From IMG/VR virus record IMGVR_UViG_3300025098_000348, positions 1 to 20,763 of that record: 20,763 nt of DNA. One strand, written 5' to 3'. Positions within the stretch are counted from its first letter, which is position 1; each line of letters begins with the position of its first letter. The translations under genes and the position numbers were made by a program. Positions 1,254-18,337 of the stretch are shown one piece after another. The notes beneath the pieces were generated by a model. The model was not told where the DNA came from. It made no database searches and worked only from the letters and a program-made list of their open reading frames with translations. Source of the DNA: a virus.

Positions 1254-1965
1254 TTATTATTTTATGGTTTGTGAAGCTCTTCATGAGAAGAGGACTAAAC
1301 CATTGTATAATACAGTCATAAGAAGAATCAAAGAGTGTGGAGATAATTTTTATCTTCTTGGAGGCTTTGAGCCAATTGATGAACTTCCAGTAATAAAAGT
1401 TTGTGATTTTGATGACTATCACTCTTGTGTTGAAAAAATAGAATCAGTATTTAAGAAAGATTGGAATGATGCTGATTGGCATATAATTTGTGACGATGAT
1501 ACCTTTGTGCATACTGAGAATTTAAATTTGTTTATAAGCAAATTATCCAAAGATAATTTAAGAATATATTGCTCTCAGCTTTACGAAGATAGTGTCGGTA
1601 TATTCGGAGGAGCTGGCATTTTAATGAATGATAAAACTTTTAAATTGATACAGAAATTTGTAATAGAAAATGGGTGGAAAGAGAATAGACATTTTCAAAG
1701 CCATTCTGACATAGCATTATCAAAAATTTGTGGTCGTTTAAATAGAAAATTGAAAATAGCTAATAAAGAAAATGATAAAATACGTGTTAGCAACCCTAAA
1801 ACAATGTATTCTTTTAATCATGACACAATGAAGAAAAGTCAAAATTTAATTAATATAAAGGGTGATCTTATAACCGCACACATTAAAGATATGCAATATG
1901 TTTGGACTGACTTCTATGAACAAGAATGCCCCTATCAATCTTTAGAAAATGCCTTTTGTAGATAA
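1228..1965 (+). CDS. Fringe-like GT31-type glycosyltransferase
   Basis: A 245-residue protein when started at ATG 1228. A TTG at 1219 and an ATG at 1264 are alternatives; I prefer 1228 because PVINYYFMVCEAL (residues 6-18) looks like the first beta strand. The metal-binding motif DDDTFV is at residues 89-94 after a strand DWHII. FGGAGILM at 126-133 matches the GGAG donor-site motif of Fringe and beta-1,3-galactosyltransferases, and SDIALS at 160-165 sits where the family has its (S/D)D-V-x-L helix with the catalytic acid. These three motifs in this order are characteristic of GT31-type enzymes, which transfer a hexose or HexNAc from a nucleotide sugar. Exact sugar and acceptor are unknown. 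The gene overlaps both neighbours (26 and 17 bases), so it belongs to the same operon as the sulfotransferases. Confidence 0.72.
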   Translation: MSKKRPVINYYFMVCEALHEKRTKPLYNTVIRRIKECGDNFYLLGGFEPIDELPVIKVCDFDDYHSCVEKIESVFKKDWNDADWHIICDDDTFVHTENLNLFISKLSKDNLRIYCSQLYEDSVGIFGGAGILMNDKTFKLIQKFVIENGWKENRHFQSHSDIALSKICGRLNRKLKIANKENDKIRVSNPKTMYSFNHDTMKKSQNLINIKGDLITAHIKDMQYVWTDFYEQECPYQSLENAFCR

Positions 1966-2542
1966 TAAAAATAAATTTGCTTTTATTCATATTCCTAAAT
2001 GCGGAGGAAGATCTATTAAAAAGGTATTCGATCTTAAACGTCACGACCACTATGGGATATCTAAATTAGTTTTTAATTACACTGATGATTGCCCTCAATT
2101 AGACGTAGAGGGTTTATTCAAATTCGCGTTTGTTCGAAATCCTTGGGATAGATTTGTGAGTGCTTATGAGTATTTAAAAAGAGGTGGTATACCACTTTAT
2201 GACAGACCTATGACATTAGACATTAAGAAAGAATATTCAGATTTTAAGGATTTTATATTTGCGAAACATGTTTGGGAAAAGTGGATTTATTTTCGTCCAC
2301 AATTAGATTTCATCACTGTAGATGGATCAATTAAAACAGATTTTGTGGGCAGGTTTGAAAATTTTCAAAATGATTTTGATTTTGTTTGTGATCAAGTCGA
2401 TACTCCTAGAGTAAAACTTCCTCATGTAAACGCAACAAAACACACTCATTATACTGAATATTATGATAATCAATCAATTAAGTTTATTGGGCGAACCTTC
2501 GAAGAAGATATAGATACATTTAAATATAGATTTGGAGAATAG
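1949..2542 (+). CDS. PAPS-dependent sulfotransferase (first of a tandem pair)
   Basis: A 197-residue protein. The 5'-phosphosulfate-binding loop is FIHIPKCGGRSI (residues 12-23) with the expected catalytic Lys17. The 3'-phosphate-binding segment is FAFVRNPWDRFVSAY (59-73) with Arg63 and Ser71. This is the standard signature of carbohydrate sulfotransferases of the Sulfotransfer_2 type, which move sulfate from PAPS to a sugar hydroxyl. The length is short for the family but both co-substrate motifs are intact. The C-terminal third carries GRFENFQ and LPHVNATKHTHYTEYYD, shared almost unchanged with the next gene, so the two are paralogues. It overlaps the upstream glycosyltransferase by 17 bases. 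The acceptor is probably a glycan made by the neighbouring glycosyltransferases (inference). Confidence 0.88.
   Translation: MPFVDNKNKFAFIHIPKCGGRSIKKVFDLKRHDHYGISKLVFNYTDDCPQLDVEGLFKFAFVRNPWDRFVSAYEYLKRGGIPLYDRPMTLDIKKEYSDFKDFIFAKHVWEKWIYFRPQLDFITVDGSIKTDFVGRFENFQNDFDFVCDQVDTPRVKLPHVNATKHTHYTEYYDNQSIKFIGRTFEEDIDTFKYRFGE
2534..2537 (+). promoter_or_regulatory. Shine-Dalgarno inside the preceding gene's last codons
   Basis: GGAG lies 8 bases before the ATG of the second sulfotransferase and is made by the codons for the terminal Phe-Gly-Glu of the first. The same arrangement recurs at 3092-3095. Confidence 0.65.
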
Positions 2543-2545
2543 ATT

Positions 2546-3100
2546 ATGATGTGTCACAAAAACAAGTTTATCTTTATACACATAAACAAAACTGGTGGCA
2601 CTAGTATTACTAAGCTTCTAGTGAACGCTGAGAATCCTCCGCAGAAGCATAAGTGGGCTTGGTGGTACAAAAAGTATGAGCCCGAGGCATTTAATACTTA
2701 TTTTAAATTCTCTATCATACGTAATCCTTGGGATAAATTACTGTCTCAGTATTTCTTTAGAGTTAAAGATGATACTCAACATGGATATATAGAAAGTGCT
2801 AAAGGCTTGAGCTTCTTGGATTTTTTATTAAATCCATTTCCTGCAAAGCATAAATTACAGCATAGTAAACTATTTGAAGGTGACGTATGCTTAGTCGATT
2901 TTATTGGTAGGTTTGAAAATCTTCAGGAAGACTTTAATACTATTTGCGACAAAATTGGAGTTCCGCAACAAAAACTTCCTCACGTAAACAAAACAAAACA
3001 TAAGCATTACGCCGAATACTACGATGAAGAAACAAAACAAATTGTTGCGGAAAAATATGCAAAGGACATTGAGTATTTCGGATACAAATTTGGAGAATAA
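2546..3100 (+). CDS. PAPS-dependent sulfotransferase (second of a tandem pair)
   Basis: A 184-residue protein. The PAPS 5'-loop reads FIHINKTGGTSI (residues 10-21, Lys15) and the 3'-phosphate motif is FSIIRNPWDKLLSQYF (55-70, Arg59, Ser67). The C-terminal half repeats elements of the preceding gene: FIGRFENLQEDFNTICD, KLPHVNKTKHKHYAEYYD and a terminal YKFGE. It therefore arose by duplication of its neighbour or a shared ancestor. The middle acceptor-facing part (residues 25-50 and 75-110) differs strongly, which would fit a different acceptor position or sugar. The ATG at 2546 is followed by a second ATG; a good Shine-Dalgarno at 2534 supports either. Three bases separate it from the upstream stop, so the pair is translated from one mRNA. 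Confidence 0.88.
   Translation: MMCHKNKFIFIHINKTGGTSITKLLVNAENPPQKHKWAWWYKKYEPEAFNTYFKFSIIRNPWDKLLSQYFFRVKDDTQHGYIESAKGLSFLDFLLNPFPAKHKLQHSKLFEGDVCLVDFIGRFENLQEDFNTICDKIGVPQQKLPHVNKTKHKHYAEYYDEETKQIVAEKYAKDIEYFGYKFGE
3092..3095 (+). promoter_or_regulatory. Shine-Dalgarno for GTG-started GT25 gene
   Basis: GGAG sits 8 bases before the GTG at 3104, inside the codons for the terminal Phe-Gly-Glu of the second sulfotransferase. It decides the GTG start of the next gene. Confidence 0.65.
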
Positions 3101-3103
3101 GAA

Positions 3104-3751
3104 GTGAAAGTATTTTATATCAATTTAAAAAAACGCAAGGATAGAAAACACCACATGGAAGAGATGTTGTCTAATCTAAATCTTAGTTATGAGAGATTTG
3201 AGGCGATCTGTCCTACTATTAATGAAATAAAGTTTGGGAAGTATAAAAATTTTTATAATAAAGCATCCCCACGATTTAAACAATATATTAACTTAGAAAA
3301 GTATCACCCAAGAGGAATTGGAGTGTTTGGGGTCTATTTATCACATTTTAATATACATAAAAGTCAACTCGGAAATTCTAAACCATATATAATATTAGAG
3401 GATGATATTGCTATTACGGCAAAAACATTATCACAACTTAATCATTTTATTTTAAATAAAACGTATAAAGATTGGGACATTATTAGAAGTATGTGGGGAT
3501 CTAAGAAATGGATTAACAAAATTGAAGGAGTTCACACTGAATCTAAATTTGCTGACCAAAATGAAACTCATCAAAGGTTTGGTGGAGCACATTTTAGTGT
3601 CTTTAAAAATGCTAAAAAAATTATGGATTATCTGTCATCTGAAAATTTAATAGCAATTGATGCATTATACACCACAAGTTTACTAAATGTTTACCATTCT
3701 AAATTTGGTGTAAATTTATGTGAGTTTGGATCAGACATTCCTAAAATATAA
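3104..3751 (+). CDS. Glycosyltransferase family 25 protein
   Basis: A 215-residue protein that starts at GTG, with a well-placed GGAG 8 bases upstream. The N-terminus MKVFYINLKKRKDRK matches the first strand of GT25 (LPS glycosyltransferase) proteins. GVFGVYLSHFNIHK (residues 73-86) is the family's conserved G-x-x-x-YLSH helix, and PYIILEDDIAI (94-104) is the strand ending in the metal-binding ED-D motif (Glu99-Asp101). GT25 enzymes typically add galactose or glucose to lipooligosaccharide or glycoprotein acceptors. Its neighbours are two sulfotransferases and a UDP-galactopyranose mutase, pointing to one glycan pathway. It is slightly short for the family but looks complete. The base composition is very AT-rich (about one quarter G+C in places). 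Confidence 0.85.
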   Translation: MKVFYINLKKRKDRKHHMEEMLSNLNLSYERFEAICPTINEIKFGKYKNFYNKASPRFKQYINLEKYHPRGIGVFGVYLSHFNIHKSQLGNSKPYIILEDDIAITAKTLSQLNHFILNKTYKDWDIIRSMWGSKKWINKIEGVHTESKFADQNETHQRFGGAHFSVFKNAKKIMDYLSSENLIAIDALYTTSLLNVYHSKFGVNLCEFGSDIPKI

Positions 3752-3754
3752 ATA
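3747..3754 (+). promoter_or_regulatory. T4-type late promoter octamer upstream of glf
   Basis: An exact TATAAATA overlaps the stop codon of the GT25 gene. It matches the sigma-gp55 late -10 element of T4-like phages and would give a leader of about 40 bases before glf at 3802. Confidence 0.6.
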
Positions 3755-3801
3755 ATAAATCACAAAAACAAAAGTAAGAGCATGAAAATGCATTTTAATA
3801 T

Positions 3802-4791
3802 ATGAAGTTTGTTATTGTTGGTTGTGGCTTAAGTGGGATAACTGCAGCTCGTTTGCTAAAAGACAAAGGGCATGAAGTTAAGATTTATGAGTCTCGGAAT
3901 CATATTGGAGGTAATTGCTATGATAGTAATGTCTGCGGAACTAATATGCACAACTATGGGCCTCATATTTTTCATACTGATGATGAAGAAGTTTTTGCAT
4001 TTTTATCCAAATACACAGAATGGACTCCATTGCATTATAGACCAATAGGTCGAACAATACTTGGTGATATACCTCTTCCTTATAATGATAAAGGTTGTGA
4101 GAAAGCTATTGGTTTTAAGCTTACAGAAAAAGAAATTATTGATCTTGTCTTCTGTGATTATAGCGAAAAGCAATGGGGAGTTCCATTCAATGAGATTCCA
4201 TCAACCATTACAAATAGAATCCCTAAGACTAAAGACTGCGATAATCCAACATGGTTTGAAGGGCAAAAATATCAATGTGTACCAAAAGAAGGATACACAA
4301 AAATGTTTGAGAAAATGCTTAATGGCATTGAGGTTGTTTTAGGTTGCTCTCAAGATGATTGGAAAAATTCTTCTTATGATAAGCTAATTTACACTGGGAA
4401 GATAGACGAATATTTTAATGATTGTTATGGCACTCTTCCATATAGAACACTTGACTTTGAACACAAAGTAACTTCAAAGAAACAAGATACCTTAGTTTAT
4501 AATGAATGCAATTATACTAATTCATGGACTCGTCAATATGATCATTCGTATTTTACACCGGGTCATAAAGGACTAACTGTCATAACACGTGAGTATTCAA
4601 GAGATGCTGAAGGAGATGATATTCCGTTTTATCCCATTCCTTGGGGAAAATTGCATGAAGCATATAAGAAGTATAAAGTATTAGCTGATAACGAAAAAAA
4701 TACAATCTTTTTAGGCAGATTAGCACAGTACAAATATTTAGATATGTGGATGGTAATAAAACACGCATTTCTAAAACTAAAAAACGTATAA
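3802..4791 (+). CDS. glf: UDP-galactopyranose mutase
   Basis: A 329-residue flavoenzyme that interconverts UDP-galactopyranose and UDP-galactofuranose, the donor for galactofuranose in surface glycans. The FAD dinucleotide fold is at the N-terminus: VGCGLSG (residues 6-12) and the ribose-binding Glu in IYESRNHIGGNCYD (28-41). NYGPHIFHTDD (51-61) is a diagnostic Glf signature. PKEGYTKMFEKML, the tyrosine/arginine segment TNSWTRQYDHSYF and the C-terminal GRLAQYKYLDMWMVIKHA also match Glf in the expected order. Length is a little below that of bacterial enzymes (about 360-390), with no obvious missing motif. A late-promoter octamer lies 47 bases upstream. Phage copies are uncommon; this one completes the accessory glycan module. 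Confidence 0.93.
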   Translation: MKFVIVGCGLSGITAARLLKDKGHEVKIYESRNHIGGNCYDSNVCGTNMHNYGPHIFHTDDEEVFAFLSKYTEWTPLHYRPIGRTILGDIPLPYNDKGCEKAIGFKLTEKEIIDLVFCDYSEKQWGVPFNEIPSTITNRIPKTKDCDNPTWFEGQKYQCVPKEGYTKMFEKMLNGIEVVLGCSQDDWKNSSYDKLIYTGKIDEYFNDCYGTLPYRTLDFEHKVTSKKQDTLVYNECNYTNSWTRQYDHSYFTPGHKGLTVITREYSRDAEGDDIPFYPIPWGKLHEAYKKYKVLADNEKNTIFLGRLAQYKYLDMWMVIKHAFLKLKNV

Positions 4792-12356: not shown

Positions 12357-13868
12357 ATGGCGATAAATTTATTTGGATTTGAAATCAGCAAAAAGGTTTC
12401 AGCACAACAAACCGTTGAACCAGTATCACCTATTCCTAAACCTAATGATGAATCTGCATCAACGGTGGCGGTTGGAGGAGGCTACTATGGTCAGTATGTA
12501 GATCTTTCAAATACCGATACAGTTTCAGACCACGAACTAATTCGCAAATATCGTGAAGCAGCGATGCAACCTGAATGTGATGCTGCTGTTTCTGACATTG
12601 TAGATGGAGCTATTGCGTCATCAGAAGAATCTGCTCCGGTCGATTTGACTATGCACGATTTAGATCTACCTAATAATGTAAAGAAACAAATAATTAATGA
12701 GTTTAACCGAGTGTTGAAACTCTATAAATTTAATAGAAATGCCTCAGAGTATTTTCGTAATTGGTATGTTGATGGTAAAGCATACTTTAATGTAATCATC
12801 GATCCTAATAATCCTCAGAAAGGTATTGTAGAACTTCGGCCTGTTGAATCAACACACATCAATAAAGTTAAAGAAGTAAAACAAGAAACTGATAAAAACA
12901 CAGGATTAGAATATGAAAAGGTTGTAGACGAATATTACGTCTATTCTCCTGACCTCGGAAATAATGGTGTTGATAAATTAAACGGAATTAGGTTCGCAAC
13001 AGATGCAATTATTCAAGTTAATTCTGGAATAATGGATCCTGATAAAATACGAACAGTTGGCCATCTTCATAAAGCGATGAAGCTTGTTAATCAGCTTCGC
13101 TATATGGAAGATTCTTTGGTTGTTTATCGTGTTTCACGAGCTCCGGAAAGAAGAATTTTTTATATTGATGTTGGTAACCTTCCAAAAGGTAAGGCTGAAG
13201 AATATGTTCAGCAGGTTGTTTCTCGTTATAGAAATAAGCTTGTGTATGATGCAAATACCGGAAATATCAGCGATGATCGTAGACACATGTCAATGCTTGA
13301 AGATTTTTATCTTCCTAGACGAGAAGGTGGACGAGGAACTGAGATTACTACACTTGGTGGTGGAGAAAACTTAGGTCAGATTGAAGACGTACAGTTTTTC
13401 CAACGTAAACTATACCGTGCTCTTAATGTACCCGTTGCAAGGTTAGAACAAGACACAGCATTTAGTGTTGGACGTGCAAGTGAAGTTTCAAGGGAAGAAG
13501 TCAAATTTCAAAAGTTTATTGATCGTTTAAGAAAGAAGTTTTCTTTCATGTTGATGGACGCTTTGAGAATACAGCTCATCCTTAAAGGTGTTATTACTGA
13601 AAAAGATTGGGGTGACATTGAAGAATCTATTAACATTAACTTCCTTGAAGATAACTATTTTGCTGAACTAAAAGAATTTGAAATCCTTAGAGAACGTTTG
13701 GAAATGTCACAAATGCTTGAAGATATTGTTGGTAAGTATATCTCTGATAAGTATGTACGCACAGTCATACTTAAACAATCAGATGAAGATATTATGCGTC
13801 TTGATAAAGAAATTGAAGAAGAAGGTTCAGGAGATGAAGGTGATGAATTTGAAGATGAAGATATTTAA
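12357..13868 (+). CDS. 20: Portal vertex protein gp20
   Basis: A 503-residue portal protein: a 12-mer at one capsid vertex that initiates head assembly and through which gp17 packages DNA. After a short N-terminus (MAINLFGFEISKK) come the conserved segments YREAAMQPECDAAVSDIVDGAI, EYFRNWYVDGKAYFNVIID, ELRPVESTHINKVKEV, RAPERRIFYIDVGNLPKGKAEEY and LNVPVARLEQDTAF; these run in the order found in T4-like gp20. The C-terminus is strongly acidic (EEEGSGDEGDEFEDEDI). It is slightly shorter than T4 gp20 (524 aa). It heads the head-gene block and is preceded by an almost leaderless late promoter. Confidence 0.96.
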   Translation: MAINLFGFEISKKVSAQQTVEPVSPIPKPNDESASTVAVGGGYYGQYVDLSNTDTVSDHELIRKYREAAMQPECDAAVSDIVDGAIASSEESAPVDLTMHDLDLPNNVKKQIINEFNRVLKLYKFNRNASEYFRNWYVDGKAYFNVIIDPNNPQKGIVELRPVESTHINKVKEVKQETDKNTGLEYEKVVDEYYVYSPDLGNNGVDKLNGIRFATDAIIQVNSGIMDPDKIRTVGHLHKAMKLVNQLRYMEDSLVVYRVSRAPERRIFYIDVGNLPKGKAEEYVQQVVSRYRNKLVYDANTGNISDDRRHMSMLEDFYLPRREGGRGTEITTLGGGENLGQIEDVQFFQRKLYRALNVPVARLEQDTAFSVGRASEVSREEVKFQKFIDRLRKKFSFMLMDALRIQLILKGVITEKDWGDIEESININFLEDNYFAELKEFEILRERLEMSQMLEDIVGKYISDKYVRTVILKQSDEDIMRLDKEIEEEGSGDEGDEFEDEDI

Positions 13869-13906: not shown

Positions 13907-14965
13907 ATGAGTGATATTGCTAAAGAATTATTTAAAAGTATTGTTACCGATACGGCTTCACAAGAAGATTTTGGTAGCGCAATAAAGCAGAAAATGGATC
14001 AAGCTCTGGATGTTCGTAGAGCCGGTATTACCGCAGATATTTACAATAAACAAGTTCCAAGCTCTGAAACTGTCGTTGAAGAATCAACTGATCTTGATGA
14101 AGCAACTGTTAATGTTGAGATTCCAGATCCGTTTTTTTTAAGAGGGTCGCGCGCCGGTTGGCCGGCCGGTTCTTATGATGAGAAAGATCTGTTCTCTCGT
14201 AATTTCAATAAGCTTCTTAAAAAGTATCGTGTTAAAGGGGAACTCCTCGGCGAGCCACGCGGGAAGGATATGCCAGAAGTTCAACTTACTGGTAAAAAGA
14301 AAGATCTAGAACGCATTTTGGCTGATCCTGATGGTTGGGATGATGATGGGTGGCGTGCAGACGGTATTAAAGAATCAGCAAATCTTGAAGAAGCTAAGAT
14401 GTCGCCTGAAGATGCTGAGATTGCACAGGAAATTATCAGGAGCGAAGATGAAAAAGTCAGCGTTGCGTATGGCCAAAAACTAAAAGTAGCTCGACAAAAG
14501 CTTATTAAAAAATATGGTAAAGGATGGGCCAAAATGGTTGAGTCTAACCTTGAAGAAGCTAAAATACCAAGTTCTAATATATCTATATTTTCAGATCCTA
14601 AACTCGCGAAGAGTGCTGCTTCTAAGCAGAAATATAAAACTCAAGTATTTGTGGGCGATGATGGTAAATTTTTAGTTCCTTCAACAAATAAAGAAGCGGG
14701 ACAGTTGAAAAAAGATGGGTACAAAGTATACGAATCAACTGATCTTGAAGAAGCTTCGAGCGGAGACATTTCTAAGCTTTTAAAATTTGTAGCTAAAAAC
14801 GGTGCAAAAGTTAAAGGTAACGTTGCAGATTTTGGTGGCTCTAAAATCGAGTTTAGTTTTGATAAAGGAAAAATTAAGTTTGATGGAGGCAAAGATTCAG
14901 GAGTAGAATATTTCGACAACCTTCGAGATGCTATCTCTGCACTATCAATAGCGATGGAAGACTAA
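13907..14965 (+). CDS. Prohead core protein with multiple protease-site repeats (possible polyprotein)
   Basis: A 352-residue protein located where T4 has the small core genes 67 and 68. Residues 1-60 (MSDIAKELFKSIVTDTASQE, then IKQKMDQALDVRRAGITADIY) resemble the short helical core proteins of T4-like phages. Downstream the protein is divided by four related segments: ESTDLDEA (59-66), ESANLEEA (156-163), ESNLEEA (212-218) and ESTDLEEA (276-283). Each fits the L-x-E/A cut preferred by gp21-type prohead protease. Cutting would yield pieces of about 65, 97, 55, 65 and 70 residues. The second is rich in basic and Gly residues, and the last has an FGGSKIEF-SFDKGKIKFDGG beta-like core. I do not recognise folds for the later pieces. 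It is encoded directly upstream of the protease (4-base gap), supporting a role as substrate. Cleavage itself is inferred. Confidence 0.72.
   Translation: MSDIAKELFKSIVTDTASQEDFGSAIKQKMDQALDVRRAGITADIYNKQVPSSETVVEESTDLDEATVNVEIPDPFFLRGSRAGWPAGSYDEKDLFSRNFNKLLKKYRVKGELLGEPRGKDMPEVQLTGKKKDLERILADPDGWDDDGWRADGIKESANLEEAKMSPEDAEIAQEIIRSEDEKVSVAYGQKLKVARQKLIKKYGKGWAKMVESNLEEAKIPSSNISIFSDPKLAKSAASKQKYKTQVFVGDDGKFLVPSTNKEAGQLKKDGYKVYESTDLEEASSGDISKLLKFVAKNGAKVKGNVADFGGSKIEFSFDKGKIKFDGGKDSGVEYFDNLRDAISALSIAMED
14081..14755 (+). repeat. Four dispersed ESxxLxEA-coding repeats
   Basis: Copies lie at 14081-14104, 14372-14395, 14540-14560 and 14732-14755. The nucleotide core is GAATC-(A/T)...CTTGA(A/T)GAAGC. 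The spacing is uneven (291, 168, 192 bases), which fits linkers between distinct domains rather than a simple tandem repeat. Confidence 0.8.
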
Positions 14966-14969
14966 AACT

Positions 14970-15614
14970 ATGAAATTAATTACGGAACATTTAGATCAGC
15001 TTGAGTATATTACTGAAGCAAAAGATAACGGTGAAAAGAACGTTTTCATCGAAGGAATTTTTATGCAAGCGGAGCAACAAAACCGCAATAAACGAATCTA
15101 TCCTAAAGCAGTTTTAAAGGCTGCTTGTGAAAGATACGTTAAAGAACAAGTTAAAACAGGTCGTGCTTGTGGTGAGTTAAATCACCCCGAAGGACCAGCG
15201 ATTAACTTAGATAAAGTTTCACACAGAATTACCGAACTCAAATGGGAAGGTAATAATGTTGTTGGAAAGGCACTTGTACTTGATACACCAATGGGCAAAA
15301 TCGTGAAAGGTCTCGTTGAAGGTGGATGCAAGTTAGGTGTCTCTAGCCGTGGTATGGGTACTGTTGAGCAAAAGGAAGGCAAAACATATGTTAAGGACGA
15401 TTTCGTTCTTTCTACTGTGGATATTGTCCAAGATCCTTCTGCTCCTTCCGCCTTCGTTGAAGGTATTATGGAAGGTGTTGAATGGATTTGGGAGAATGGT
15501 CTTCTCAAACCTCAGCAAATTGAAGAATATGAGACTGAAATTAATAAAGTTCCACTTGGGCGCGTAAGCGAAGCTCAGGAACGGATCTTCAATGATTTCC
15601 TCTCCAAACTCTAA
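14970..15614 (+). CDS. 21: Prohead core protease gp21
   Basis: A 214-residue serine protease of the herpesvirus-assemblin-like group that matures the T4 prohead by cutting scaffold, core and capsid proteins after Glu. Conserved blocks are FIEGIFMQAEQQNRNKRIYP (26-45), ACGELNHPEGP (67-77, catalytic His72), the strand WEGNNVVGKALVLDTPMGKI and LGVSSRGMGT (122-131, with the nucleophilic Ser). The length equals T4 gp21 (212 aa). Near the N-terminus YITEAKD (13-19) contains an I-T-E/A site suited to self-processing, as known for T4 gp21. It begins 4 bases after the core protein and 17 bases before the scaffold gene. Confidence 0.95.
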   Translation: MKLITEHLDQLEYITEAKDNGEKNVFIEGIFMQAEQQNRNKRIYPKAVLKAACERYVKEQVKTGRACGELNHPEGPAINLDKVSHRITELKWEGNNVVGKALVLDTPMGKIVKGLVEGGCKLGVSSRGMGTVEQKEGKTYVKDDFVLSTVDIVQDPSAPSAFVEGIMEGVEWIWENGLLKPQQIEEYETEINKVPLGRVSEAQERIFNDFLSKL

Positions 15615-15631: not shown

Positions 15632-17029
15632 ATGTCAGACGAAAACCAAATTATCGAAGACGTCGAGGAAGTTGATCTTGTTGAGAACCAGGAGCTTGTG
15701 CAGGATATTCCTGAAGAAGTTGCTGAGGACACAAGTCAAACTTTATCTCAAGCCGTCGTAGACGCGCTTCTTGGCGAAGCTAAGAAGAATGAATCCGAAG
15801 AAGAGTCAGATGATGACGATTCTAAAGATGAAGAAGAAGAAATGGAAGAAGCTAAAGCTAAGACCGAAGAAGATGATTCCGAGGAAGTGGAAGAAGCTAA
15901 AGCCAAGACTGAAGAAGAAGATCCTGAAAAAGAGGAAGAAGTAGAAGAATCTGCTGAAGAAGATGAAGAGGTAGAAGAATCTGCTGAAGACTCTGATGAA
16001 GTAGAAGAAGTTAGCCTTCCAGATGTTAAGACTAAAGCAGGTTATCTTGCTGCAAGTTTTGATGCTCTTAAGGGAATGAAGAAATCACAACTCGTTAATG
16101 CTTATAAAGGTATTAATGTGAGTGAAGATGAAGGTGAAGTAGAAGTGCCAAAAACGAAGGCAGACATCATCAACGCAATGTATGGCCAACTTAAGGCTAT
16201 GAAAAAGGATCAATTGACTGCCTCTTATAAGGCTATTCAAGATTCTTGCGCTGGGATGCATGAGGAACTTGAGACTGAAAGCTATGCTGAAGATCTTAAG
16301 ATTCTTGCCGACTCTGAGCAGGAATTAACCGAAGGCTTTAGGGCTAAGGTTGGTACTCTGTTTGAAGGTGCTGTTGCAAACCGTGTTGTCGAGATCAAAG
16401 AATCTCTTGAAGCTCAATATGATAATGATCTTCAAGAAGAAGTAGGCTACATTCGTGAGTCTCTCGTCACTAAGATTGATGATTATCTTTCTTATGTGGT
16501 AGAAACTTGGATCGAAGAAAACCAGGAGTTTGTTGATAACAAGCTTCGCACTGACATCACAGAAAACTTCATGAAGGCTCTTCAAGGTGTGTTCACAGAA
16601 CACTATATTGAAGTACCTGATTCTAAGGTTGATCTTGTTGATCAACTTTCTGATGAAGTGAAAAGCATTGAAGAAACCCTCACAGCAGTTGAAGAAAAGA
16701 ATATTTCTCTTTCTGAAGAAGTTGAAAAACTCTATCGTGAGAAAATTGTTTCTGAAGCTACTGCTGATTTAGCATCTACTCAAGCTGCTAAACTTAACTC
16801 TCTTCTTGAAGATGTCGATTTTGTAGATGCTGAAACATTTACTGAAAAAGTCGATGTCATTAAAGAAGGATTCTTCTCAGATTCTGATTCAAAAGAAAAA
16901 GAAGAAGTCATTACTGAATCATCCGATTCAACTAACGTAAAAACAATCGTCGAGGGAGAAATTGATCCTAATAGCAAGTTGTCTGGTGACATGCAACGCT
17001 ATATTTCAACTCTTTCTCGCTTCAAATAA
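15632..17029 (+). CDS. 22: Prohead scaffolding core protein gp22, enlarged
   Basis: A 465-residue main scaffold protein around which gp23 assembles; gp21 later degrades it. Residues ~220-400 match T4 gp22: the helix RAKVGTLFEGAVANRVVE, KIDDYLSYVVETWIEENQ, GVFTEHYIEVPDSKVDLV and the coiled coil LTAVEEKNISLSEEVEKL. T4 gp22 is only 269 aa. The extra N-terminal ~200 residues consist of an extremely acidic zone (50-128) with repeated MEEAKAKTEE / VEEAKAKTEE and twice VEESAE. A duplicated helical motif KTKA-x5-M/F-x3-LKxMKKxQL-x3-YKxI follows (133-161 and 174-202). Several L/I-x-E sites (LGE/A at 47-50, LTE/G at 232-235) would permit gp21 cutting. It is followed 33 bases later by gene 23. Confidence 0.92.
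   Translation: MSDENQIIEDVEEVDLVENQELVQDIPEEVAEDTSQTLSQAVVDALLGEAKKNESEEESDDDDSKDEEEEMEEAKAKTEEDDSEEVEEAKAKTEEEDPEKEEEVEESAEEDEEVEESAEDSDEVEEVSLPDVKTKAGYLAASFDALKGMKKSQLVNAYKGINVSEDEGEVEVPKTKADIINAMYGQLKAMKKDQLTASYKAIQDSCAGMHEELETESYAEDLKILADSEQELTEGFRAKVGTLFEGAVANRVVEIKESLEAQYDNDLQEEVGYIRESLVTKIDDYLSYVVETWIEENQEFVDNKLRTDITENFMKALQGVFTEHYIEVPDSKVDLVDQLSDEVKSIEETLTAVEEKNISLSEEVEKLYREKIVSEATADLASTQAAKLNSLLEDVDFVDAETFTEKVDVIKEGFFSDSDSKEKEEVITESSDSTNVKTIVEGEIDPNSKLSGDMQRYISTLSRFK
15845..15990 (+). repeat. Acidic coding repeats in gene 22
   Basis: Two copies of a ~30-base GAAGAAGCTAAAGC unit start at 15845 and 15890. An identical 20-base unit (GTAGAAGAAT + CTGCTGAAGA) occurs at 15941-15960 and 15971-15990, a 30-base period. 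They encode Glu-rich repeats and look like recent slippage expansion. Confidence 0.8.
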
Positions 17030-17062: not shown

Positions 17063-18337
17063 ATGCTAAACGCAGAAAAAGAACTACAAAAATGGGCTCC
17101 CGTGCTTGAGCACGCTGACGCTCCCGCTATCACTGATAGCTATAAGAAGGCTGTTACAGCCAAATTGCTCGAAAACACCGAAGTTGCTCTCCGTGAGGAG
17201 GCTCACGCATCTTCGTTCAATTCGTTGAATGAGACAAGTAACCAGACGACATCTAATGAATATTCAGATCCAGTCCTTATTTCTCTTGTCCGCCGGGCAA
17301 TGCCAAACCTCATCGCTTATGATGTCGCAGGTGTCCAGCCTATGTCTGGTCCTACTGGCCTCATTTTCGCGATGAAGTCTCGTTTCAATACCGCGAGTCC
17401 TGCCACTAAAGTAACCACCGCTGATCCTGAAGCTCTCTTTAATGAGGCTGACACAGACTTCTCTGGTGCTGGTGGAAATGTTCACACCAAAGGACTCTTT
17501 GATTCTCCGACTGAGCCTACAGTTGCTCAGACAGGAACTGGTGTTGCTACTGCTACTGGTGAAACTTCAGATGCACTTGCTGAAATGGGTTTCACTATCG
17601 AAAAGTGCACTGTTACTGCTAAGACTCGTCAGCTTAAAGCTGAGTACACCATGGAGCTTGCTCAAGACCTCAAAGCTGTTCACGGCCTTGATGCTGAGTC
17701 TGAGCTTGCTAACATCCTTTCTGGTGAAATCCTTGCTGAAATCAACCGTGAGGTGATTCGTAGCTTGGTTGTTACTGGTAAGCGTGGTGGAATTGGATCT
17801 ACTGAGGGATTTGACCTTAAGACTGATGCTGATGGCCGTTGGGCTGTTGAGAAATTCCAGTCTTTGATCTTCCAACTCGAGCAGGAAGCCAACAATATTG
17901 CAATCGACACACGTCGTGGTAAGGGTAACTTCGTTATCTGCTCAAGCAACGTTGCTTCTGCACTTGCTGCAGCTGGTAGCCTTAAGTTCGGTGGAGAAGG
18001 TGAAATTGCTGTTGATGCCACTGGTAATACATTTGCTGGTACTCTCAATGGACGCCTTAAGGTATATGTTGATCCATATGCTTCAACTGACTATGCTACT
18101 GTTGGTTATAAGGGTGCTTCCCCATATGACGCTGGCCTGTTTTACGCACCTTATGTGCCTCTTACAATGGTTCGCGCTGTTGGAGAGCAGACCTTCCAGC
18201 CTAAGATTGCATTCAAGACACGTTACGGTCTTACTGCTAACCCAATTACTGGCGTAGTTGATGGATCTATCGGTGCTTCCGGTAGCAACCCATACTACCG
18301 CACCTTCCGTGTTAAGAACATTAACATTGGCGGATAA
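17063..18337 (+). CDS. 23: Major capsid protein gp23
   Basis: A 424-residue HK97-fold capsid protein, shorter than T4's 521 aa but typical of marine T4-like phages. LISLVRRAMPNLIAYDVAGVQPMSGPTGLIFAMKSR (positions 72-107) is the most conserved gp23 block. Other hallmarks are AEYTMELAQDLKAVHGLDAESELANILS, the FVICSSNVASALAAAG segment and YVDPYASTDYATVGYKG. The first ~57 residues form the head-targeting propeptide. The cut by gp21 is probably at FNSLNE/TSN (after Glu57), aligning with T4's FLTE/A site. Codon choice is markedly more G+C-rich (about 45% locally) than the glycan genes. There is no late octamer in the 33-base gap; the leader is purine-rich (AAAGAAAGAAAAAC). A strong terminator follows. 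Confidence 0.97.
   Translation: MLNAEKELQKWAPVLEHADAPAITDSYKKAVTAKLLENTEVALREEAHASSFNSLNETSNQTTSNEYSDPVLISLVRRAMPNLIAYDVAGVQPMSGPTGLIFAMKSRFNTASPATKVTTADPEALFNEADTDFSGAGGNVHTKGLFDSPTEPTVAQTGTGVATATGETSDALAEMGFTIEKCTVTAKTRQLKAEYTMELAQDLKAVHGLDAESELANILSGEILAEINREVIRSLVVTGKRGGIGSTEGFDLKTDADGRWAVEKFQSLIFQLEQEANNIAIDTRRGKGNFVICSSNVASALAAAGSLKFGGEGEIAVDATGNTFAGTLNGRLKVYVDPYASTDYATVGYKGASPYDAGLFYAPYVPLTMVRAVGEQTFQPKIAFKTRYGLTANPITGVVDGSIGASGSNPYYRTFRVKNINIGG

Follow-up and report, generated by a model that had tools for sequence, protein, structure and literature searches.

In this work, a 20,763-nt stretch of DNA (the window) was analysed. It covers the head block of a T4-like phage that is uncultured and of marine origin, with 36% G+C. 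The genes follow in the order small terminase, gp17, gp18, gp19, gp20, a putative polyprotein ORF, gp21, gp22, and gp23, and a second tail-tube-like protein, UvsY, and a helicase-like ORF are encoded 3' of gp23. From gp20 to gp23, all features described below lie on the + strand. The polyprotein ORF (13907..14965, ATG start, 352 aa) is located between the portal protein gene gp20 (12357..13868) and the prohead protease gene gp21 (14970..15614), and its stop ends 4 nt 5' of the latter. The neighbouring gene, which the original prediction had taken for the protease, is indeed gp21 (Peptidase_S77, E=1.5e-43), and its product carries its own N-terminal site YITE/A (here and below, the slash marks a predicted cut). 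The scaffold gp22 (15632..17029) and the major capsid protein gp23 (17063..18337) follow. In related contigs L004-L014, a 95-aa gene (MKIEPLTVAA..., e.g. L004 5015-5302) lies between the polyprotein gene and gp21; it is absent from the window and has a weak match to a PHROG family with no assigned function. A group of sugar genes is located directly upstream of the neck genes (1949-4791) and consists of two adjacent Sulfotransfer_2 genes (1949-2542 and 2546-3100), a GT25 glycosyltransferase (3104-3751), and a UDP-galactopyranose mutase (3802-4791). It is possibly a surface-sugar or fibre-modification cassette.

The 352-aa protein contains the pattern ES(x)(x)L(D/E)EA four times, at exactly the residues given by the original prediction: linker 1, ESTDLDE/A (residues 59-66, 14081..14104); linker 2, ESANLEE/A (residues 156-163, 14372..14395); linker 3, ESNLEE/A (residues 212-218, 14540..14560); and linker 4, ESTDLEE/A (residues 276-283, 14732..14755). 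When the residues of the protein were shuffled 20,000 times, the strict linker expression occurred 0.037 times on average and no shuffle reached the four observed, while the plain [LI]xEA motif was expected 0.32 times in residue shuffles against four observed (P=0.0002). At the DNA level the linkers are near-identical repeats of 20-28 nt from site to site. The protease gp21 cuts after Glu in (L/I)-x-E (PMC9026906), and all four linkers are predicted gp21 sites, having (L/I)-x-E with the small residue that usually comes next. Across the whole set of 211 sites collected in this study, the P3 position was L in 140, I in 43, V in 23, and F in 5 (the search pattern being restricted to these four), and P1' was A, S, or G in 174.

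The linkers divide the protein into five pieces of 65, 97, 55, 65, and 70 residues, an architecture derived from comparison with relatives. Piece 1 (residues 1-65, 13907..14101) resembles, by HMM, the acidic core protein gp67 of T4 and has two helices. It is followed by bead A (residues 66-162, 14102..14392), the helical bead B (residues 163-217, 14393..14557), bead C of family F09 (residues 218-282, 14558..14752), and bead D of family F02 (residues 283-352, 14753..14962). The pI values of the pieces are 4.3, 5.1, 8.2, 8.9, and 6.5, and therefore the claim that their compositions are unlike holds. Among the sequences compared, beads A and B occur only in the window and the near-identical contig L003, and neither has an independent relative; bead A is weakly similar to family F14 (hhalign E=0.001, probability 22%). 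Bead C was found in 16 proteins, next to members of 10 families on the left and 7 on the right. Bead D was found in 19; it is the last bead in the window and an internal one in L174, L180, and L183. The AlphaFold2 model of the window protein (28 sequences; mean pLDDT 61, pTM 0.30) shows small separate secondary-structure units for the five pieces and is too weak to prove separate domains. Bead D is the best-modelled bead, with pLDDT of ~79-89. The values fall below 50 in segments 40-64, 139-163, and 212-222, which cover most or all of linkers 1-3, and linker 4 lies outside the disordered segments and is modelled with moderate confidence. Within the limits of this weak model, the linkers do not appear inside a single fold, an outcome that would have spoken against the original prediction. 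Foldseek with the window model gave nothing at E of 0.001 or better, and KH-like matches of the beads were discarded at E of 0.1 or more. The beads had no significant Pfam, PHROG, PDB-sequence, or Foldseek match and hence no known function, and no significant Pfam domain was detected in the window chain (P0001) or the larger chains P0002-P0005 described below.

An HMM of the marine N-terminal pieces matched T4 gp67 with E=1e-6, whereas none of 1,571 decoys scored better than 0.62. With an HMM from the window's subclade alone, gp67 was not reached (E=5.4) and intermediates were. The gene order in T4 is 20-67-68-21, so gp67 occupies the same slot as the window ORF, and a gp67-family ORF was present in 95 of the 95 distinct gp20-gp21 intervals collected. 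The best such ORF had at most 85 aa in 58 intervals and was longer in the other 37. The 58 include L175, L178, and L234, which encode a free gp67 and, next to it, the chain as a gp67-headed gene of its own; many relatives are without any bead. By profile homology and gene position, piece 1 can thus be assigned as a homologue of the T4 core protein gp67, in agreement with the core role first proposed for it, and membership in the gp67 family applies to this piece only. In T4, gp67 is cut to fragments by gp21, and 139 copies of a 3.9 kDa fragment remain in the head (PMC9026906). According to a 2010 review, gp67 is missing from all cyanophages (PMC2984593). The present comparisons correct the view that these phages (Kyanoviridae) lack it: judged from sequence, gp67 is present but diverged, at least in the phages examined. 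In L175 (2857-3966), a gp67-headed chain that includes a truncated second copy of bead C stands together with a free gp67-like gene of 63 aa, so this contig has one carrier copy and one plain copy of gp67. Bead D was also considered as a homologue of the free-standing genes of the gp68 slot (MKTFKELR... type) and rejected (hhalign probability 1%); small gp68-slot genes of other marine phages have capsid-targeting-like starts.

Relatives of the window ORF were drawn from IMG/VR. Contig L003 is 99.94% identical to the window over 4,673 bp with the same layout, N-A-B-C-D, where N is piece 1; owing to this identity it probably belongs to the same population. In the relatives the flanking DNA on both sides is 90-97% identical to the window (99.9% in L003), and the first piece N and the last piece D are constant, while the middle pieces differ, are absent, or are reordered. 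The layouts are N-E-F-C-D in L004, N-F-C-D in L005, N-C-F-D with C and F reversed in L006, N-G-D in L007, and N-D with no middle bead in L008, L009, and L011-L014. The same linkers around different inserts, which had been proposed as a check, are thus found in L004-L007. An assembly chimera is unlikely, as L003 repeats the window layout and L004-L007 have related ones. By comparing the window with L004-L007 by BLASTN, DNA breakpoints (in window coordinates) were located at 14083, 14103, 14105, and 14107 for linker 1; at 14549, 14553, and 14553 for linker 3 (L004, L005, and L006); and at 14738, 14743, and 14752 for linker 4 (L006 and L007). Every one of them is inside linker 1, 3, or 4 or at most 3 bp away. 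Together with the near-identical linker DNA, these positions point to recombination at the linkers as the natural shuffling mechanism, which would add, remove, and reorder beads.

The N-D relatives keep one junction site, LEE/A, INE/A, ITE/A, or VNE/A. The rest of the linker varies there and [LIV]-x-E/A is retained, so no homologue was met that lacks the motif at the junctions. A junction site of this kind, altered in sequence but not in type, would be expected under selection for cutting. This bears on the alternative that the 39-kDa protein acts uncut in the core or head, with the linkers as flexible hinges and recombination points. Charged linkers of a similar kind are common in multidomain proteins, and linker 4 is modelled with moderate confidence. 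Against it, P3 (L, I, or V), P1 (E), and P1' (A, S, or G) fit gp21 specificity, the cut motif is kept at the N-D junction while its surroundings drift, and the gene adjoins gp21, which cuts its T4 relative gp67 (PMC9026906). We therefore consider the intact protein improbable, and it is very probable that gp21 cuts the predicted linker sites.

Scans with beads C, W, and H revealed other, larger chains: L174 (637 aa), L180 (649 aa), L182 (746 aa), L183 (880 aa), and L239 (902 aa, ~12 pieces). In the de-duplicated set there are 38 ORFs with at least two strict linkers and up to 902 aa, a count that leaves out gp22 and includes the window chain via its near-identical copy L003/L096. When the multi-linker ORFs and their BLAST relatives were cut at the linkers, 82 bead families were obtained, 39 of them with three or more members; the beads are mostly of 45-110 aa. 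Bead W (F00) is flanked by 18 different families on its left-hand side and by 13 on its right-hand side. In a test in which the linker was not used to define beads, and which included a few gp22 scaffolds (taken out for the later family count), 524 of 1,235 ends of homologous segments (42%) were near a strict linker (-12 to +8 residues), compared with 163-181 (13-15%) expected. Same-family beads are repeated within L183 (174-2816, two copies of bead D) and L192 (3606-5642, two tandem copies of bead W), which indicates that beads also duplicate. In L266 (46971-48092, C48C1 CDS_0095) the linkers are followed by Gln, Ser, and Arg (ESTDLEE/Q, ESVQE/S, and ESVELEE/R), and this chain possibly has a different P1' tolerance. 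The window chain had no match among phage isolates, and matches of the larger chains to isolates were limited to a bead-C-like stretch in Pseudomonas and Stutzerimonas phages. Free-standing bead relatives are few. One is a 70-aa gene of Pseudomonas phage ZQG1 (WID41987.1, L189 5977-6189), ~39% identical to bead C, so this domain also occurs as a separate protein in an unrelated phage (Mesyanzhinovviridae). Bead W, searched as a host clue, had no match in bacterial genomes.

The existence of these chains also refines the original prediction, in that the design is not limited to the window ORF: larger chains occur at a second locus beside a cytidylyltransferase gene (phrog_3041/395), which several of them follow. 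This cytidylyltransferase starts with MKSFKQFTE/A or similar and has beads at its own C-terminus; such bead-fused, tagged forms were observed in L179, L181, L190, L195, L196, L204-L207, and others. The second-locus chains have short capsid-targeting-like N-termini, e.g. MFTFLQYLKE/A and ..EKFISE/A. The cytidylyltransferase orthologue of cyanophage S-SM1 starts with MKKFSAFLNE/A and was detected in purified virions (T4-GC190, PMC3037559). This detection is the sole finding that ties the wider system directly to the virion; for the window chain, the connection is indirect.

The beads are under purifying selection. Compared with relatives, dN/dS was ~0.08-0.3, well below 1 for beads C, D, F, and W and for the N-piece, and therefore the ORF is under protein-level constraint. 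The linkers, being near-identical DNA repeats, could promote illegitimate recombination with the beads as functionless passengers, and the partial bead C duplicate in L175 would suit such selfish or neutral shuffling. The dN/dS values speak against it, as do the reading frame, which is open in the relatives examined, and the recurrence of the same bead families in divergent phages, so this explanation is very improbable.

We hypothesize that the window ORF encodes a modular gp67-anchored polyprotein, cut by gp21, with four exchangeable small domains. Taken as a whole this is the best explanation, with a probability of roughly three in four (about 0.77). The gp67-type piece would recruit the whole chain into the prohead core, and during prohead maturation gp21 would cut the linkers, ES-x-x-L-x-E/A, freeing the gp67 piece and also about four internal proteins of roughly 6-11 kDa. 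The beads-on-a-string precursor of the original prediction thus stands as an architecture, with a gp67-like first piece and linkers that are of the gp21 L/I-x-E type and are at the same time evolutionary module borders. The fate of the beads after cutting is less certain. Most fragments of T4 gp67 and gp22 leave the head, and for this reason the beads might be lost too. The chain could then be a disposable core filler, its beads adding bulk or charge and its fragments exiting before packaging, so that nothing is delivered. In favour of a filler, the anchor gp67 is a core protein, most T4 core fragments exit the head (PMC9026906, PMC7411985), the order and number of beads vary without apparent harm, and many relatives are beadless. 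On the other hand, the beads are under purifying selection, look folded, and belong to specific recurring families, of which 27 of 39 are basic (pI >8.5 after linker removal), unlike the acidic core proteins. Moreover, the bead-bearing cytidylyltransferase family is present in virions (PMC3037559). The disposable filler is accordingly considered unlikely, and under the polyprotein reading the beads would probably stay in the mature head like the T4 internal proteins. Some of them may be injected and act in the host, which we propose only tentatively. T4 IP1, IP2, and IP3 inhibit three different type IV restriction enzymes, one each, and are variable among phages (PMC12373910), so a fast-changing head cargo would fit an arms race; this is the weakest step of the argument. 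Even more speculatively, the chain could be a cassette platform of T4-like marine phages, in which sets of small anti-host or anti-defence proteins are loaded into the head as a single polyprotein, set free jointly by the prohead protease, and renewed fast by recombination at repeated cut sites, giving a lineage-specific injected arsenal. In practical terms, the linker offers an easy sequence signature by which many uncharacterized phage head proteins could be located, and the proteins found in this way are candidates for injected anti-defence proteins like those of T4.

No account of a prohead protease processing a multi-cargo polyprotein was found in the literature searched, which did not cover many subscription papers. 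To our knowledge, processed polyproteins are textbook for animal RNA viruses and not for tailed phages, whose head cargo is thought to be made as one gene with one tag. The closest relative of the window chain is T4 gp67 (PIP), with which it shares the slot between gp20 and gp21 and the HMM homology of piece 1; however, T4 gp67, of 80 aa, has an acidic tail and is not fused to other domains, whereas the gp67 piece of the window heads up to four further domains. The T4 gp22 scaffold and the long propeptides of phiKZ and SPN3US also have several prohead-protease sites per chain (PMC9026906, PMC10052503), those of the window being predicted, but the regions cut there are lost from the head as scaffold or propeptide and are not folded exchangeable domains. 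Polyvalent proteins, encoded by phages and conjugative elements, combine many effector-like domains in one chain, which is delivered along with the DNA and for which proteolytic release was proposed (Iyer et al., 2017; PMC5512222). They differ in being large, with enzyme domains and often an embedded metallopeptidase, while the beads are small and their predicted cutter is the prohead protease; by Pfam, polyvalent domains and an embedded metallopeptidase were absent from P0001 and P0002-P0005. Finally, the T4 internal proteins IPI-IPIII are likewise small, tied to the core, and variable between phages, and they have a tag ending in (L/I)-x-E/A; after injection they block type IV restriction enzymes (PMC9026906, PMC12373910). 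The second-locus tag MFTFLQYLKE/A resembles MKTYQEFIAE/A of IPII/IPIII, and the window chain has a whole gp67 domain instead of a short N-terminal capsid targeting sequence (~10-19 residues). In T4 each internal protein has one gene and one tag, whereas the window chain has several domains behind one tag on one mRNA, with its predicted cut sites between the domains. It would mean that, if the chain is cut, several proteins are loaded in fixed ratios via one targeting domain and the cargo is swapped by recombination at the cut sites, a multi-cargo design that T4 does not have.
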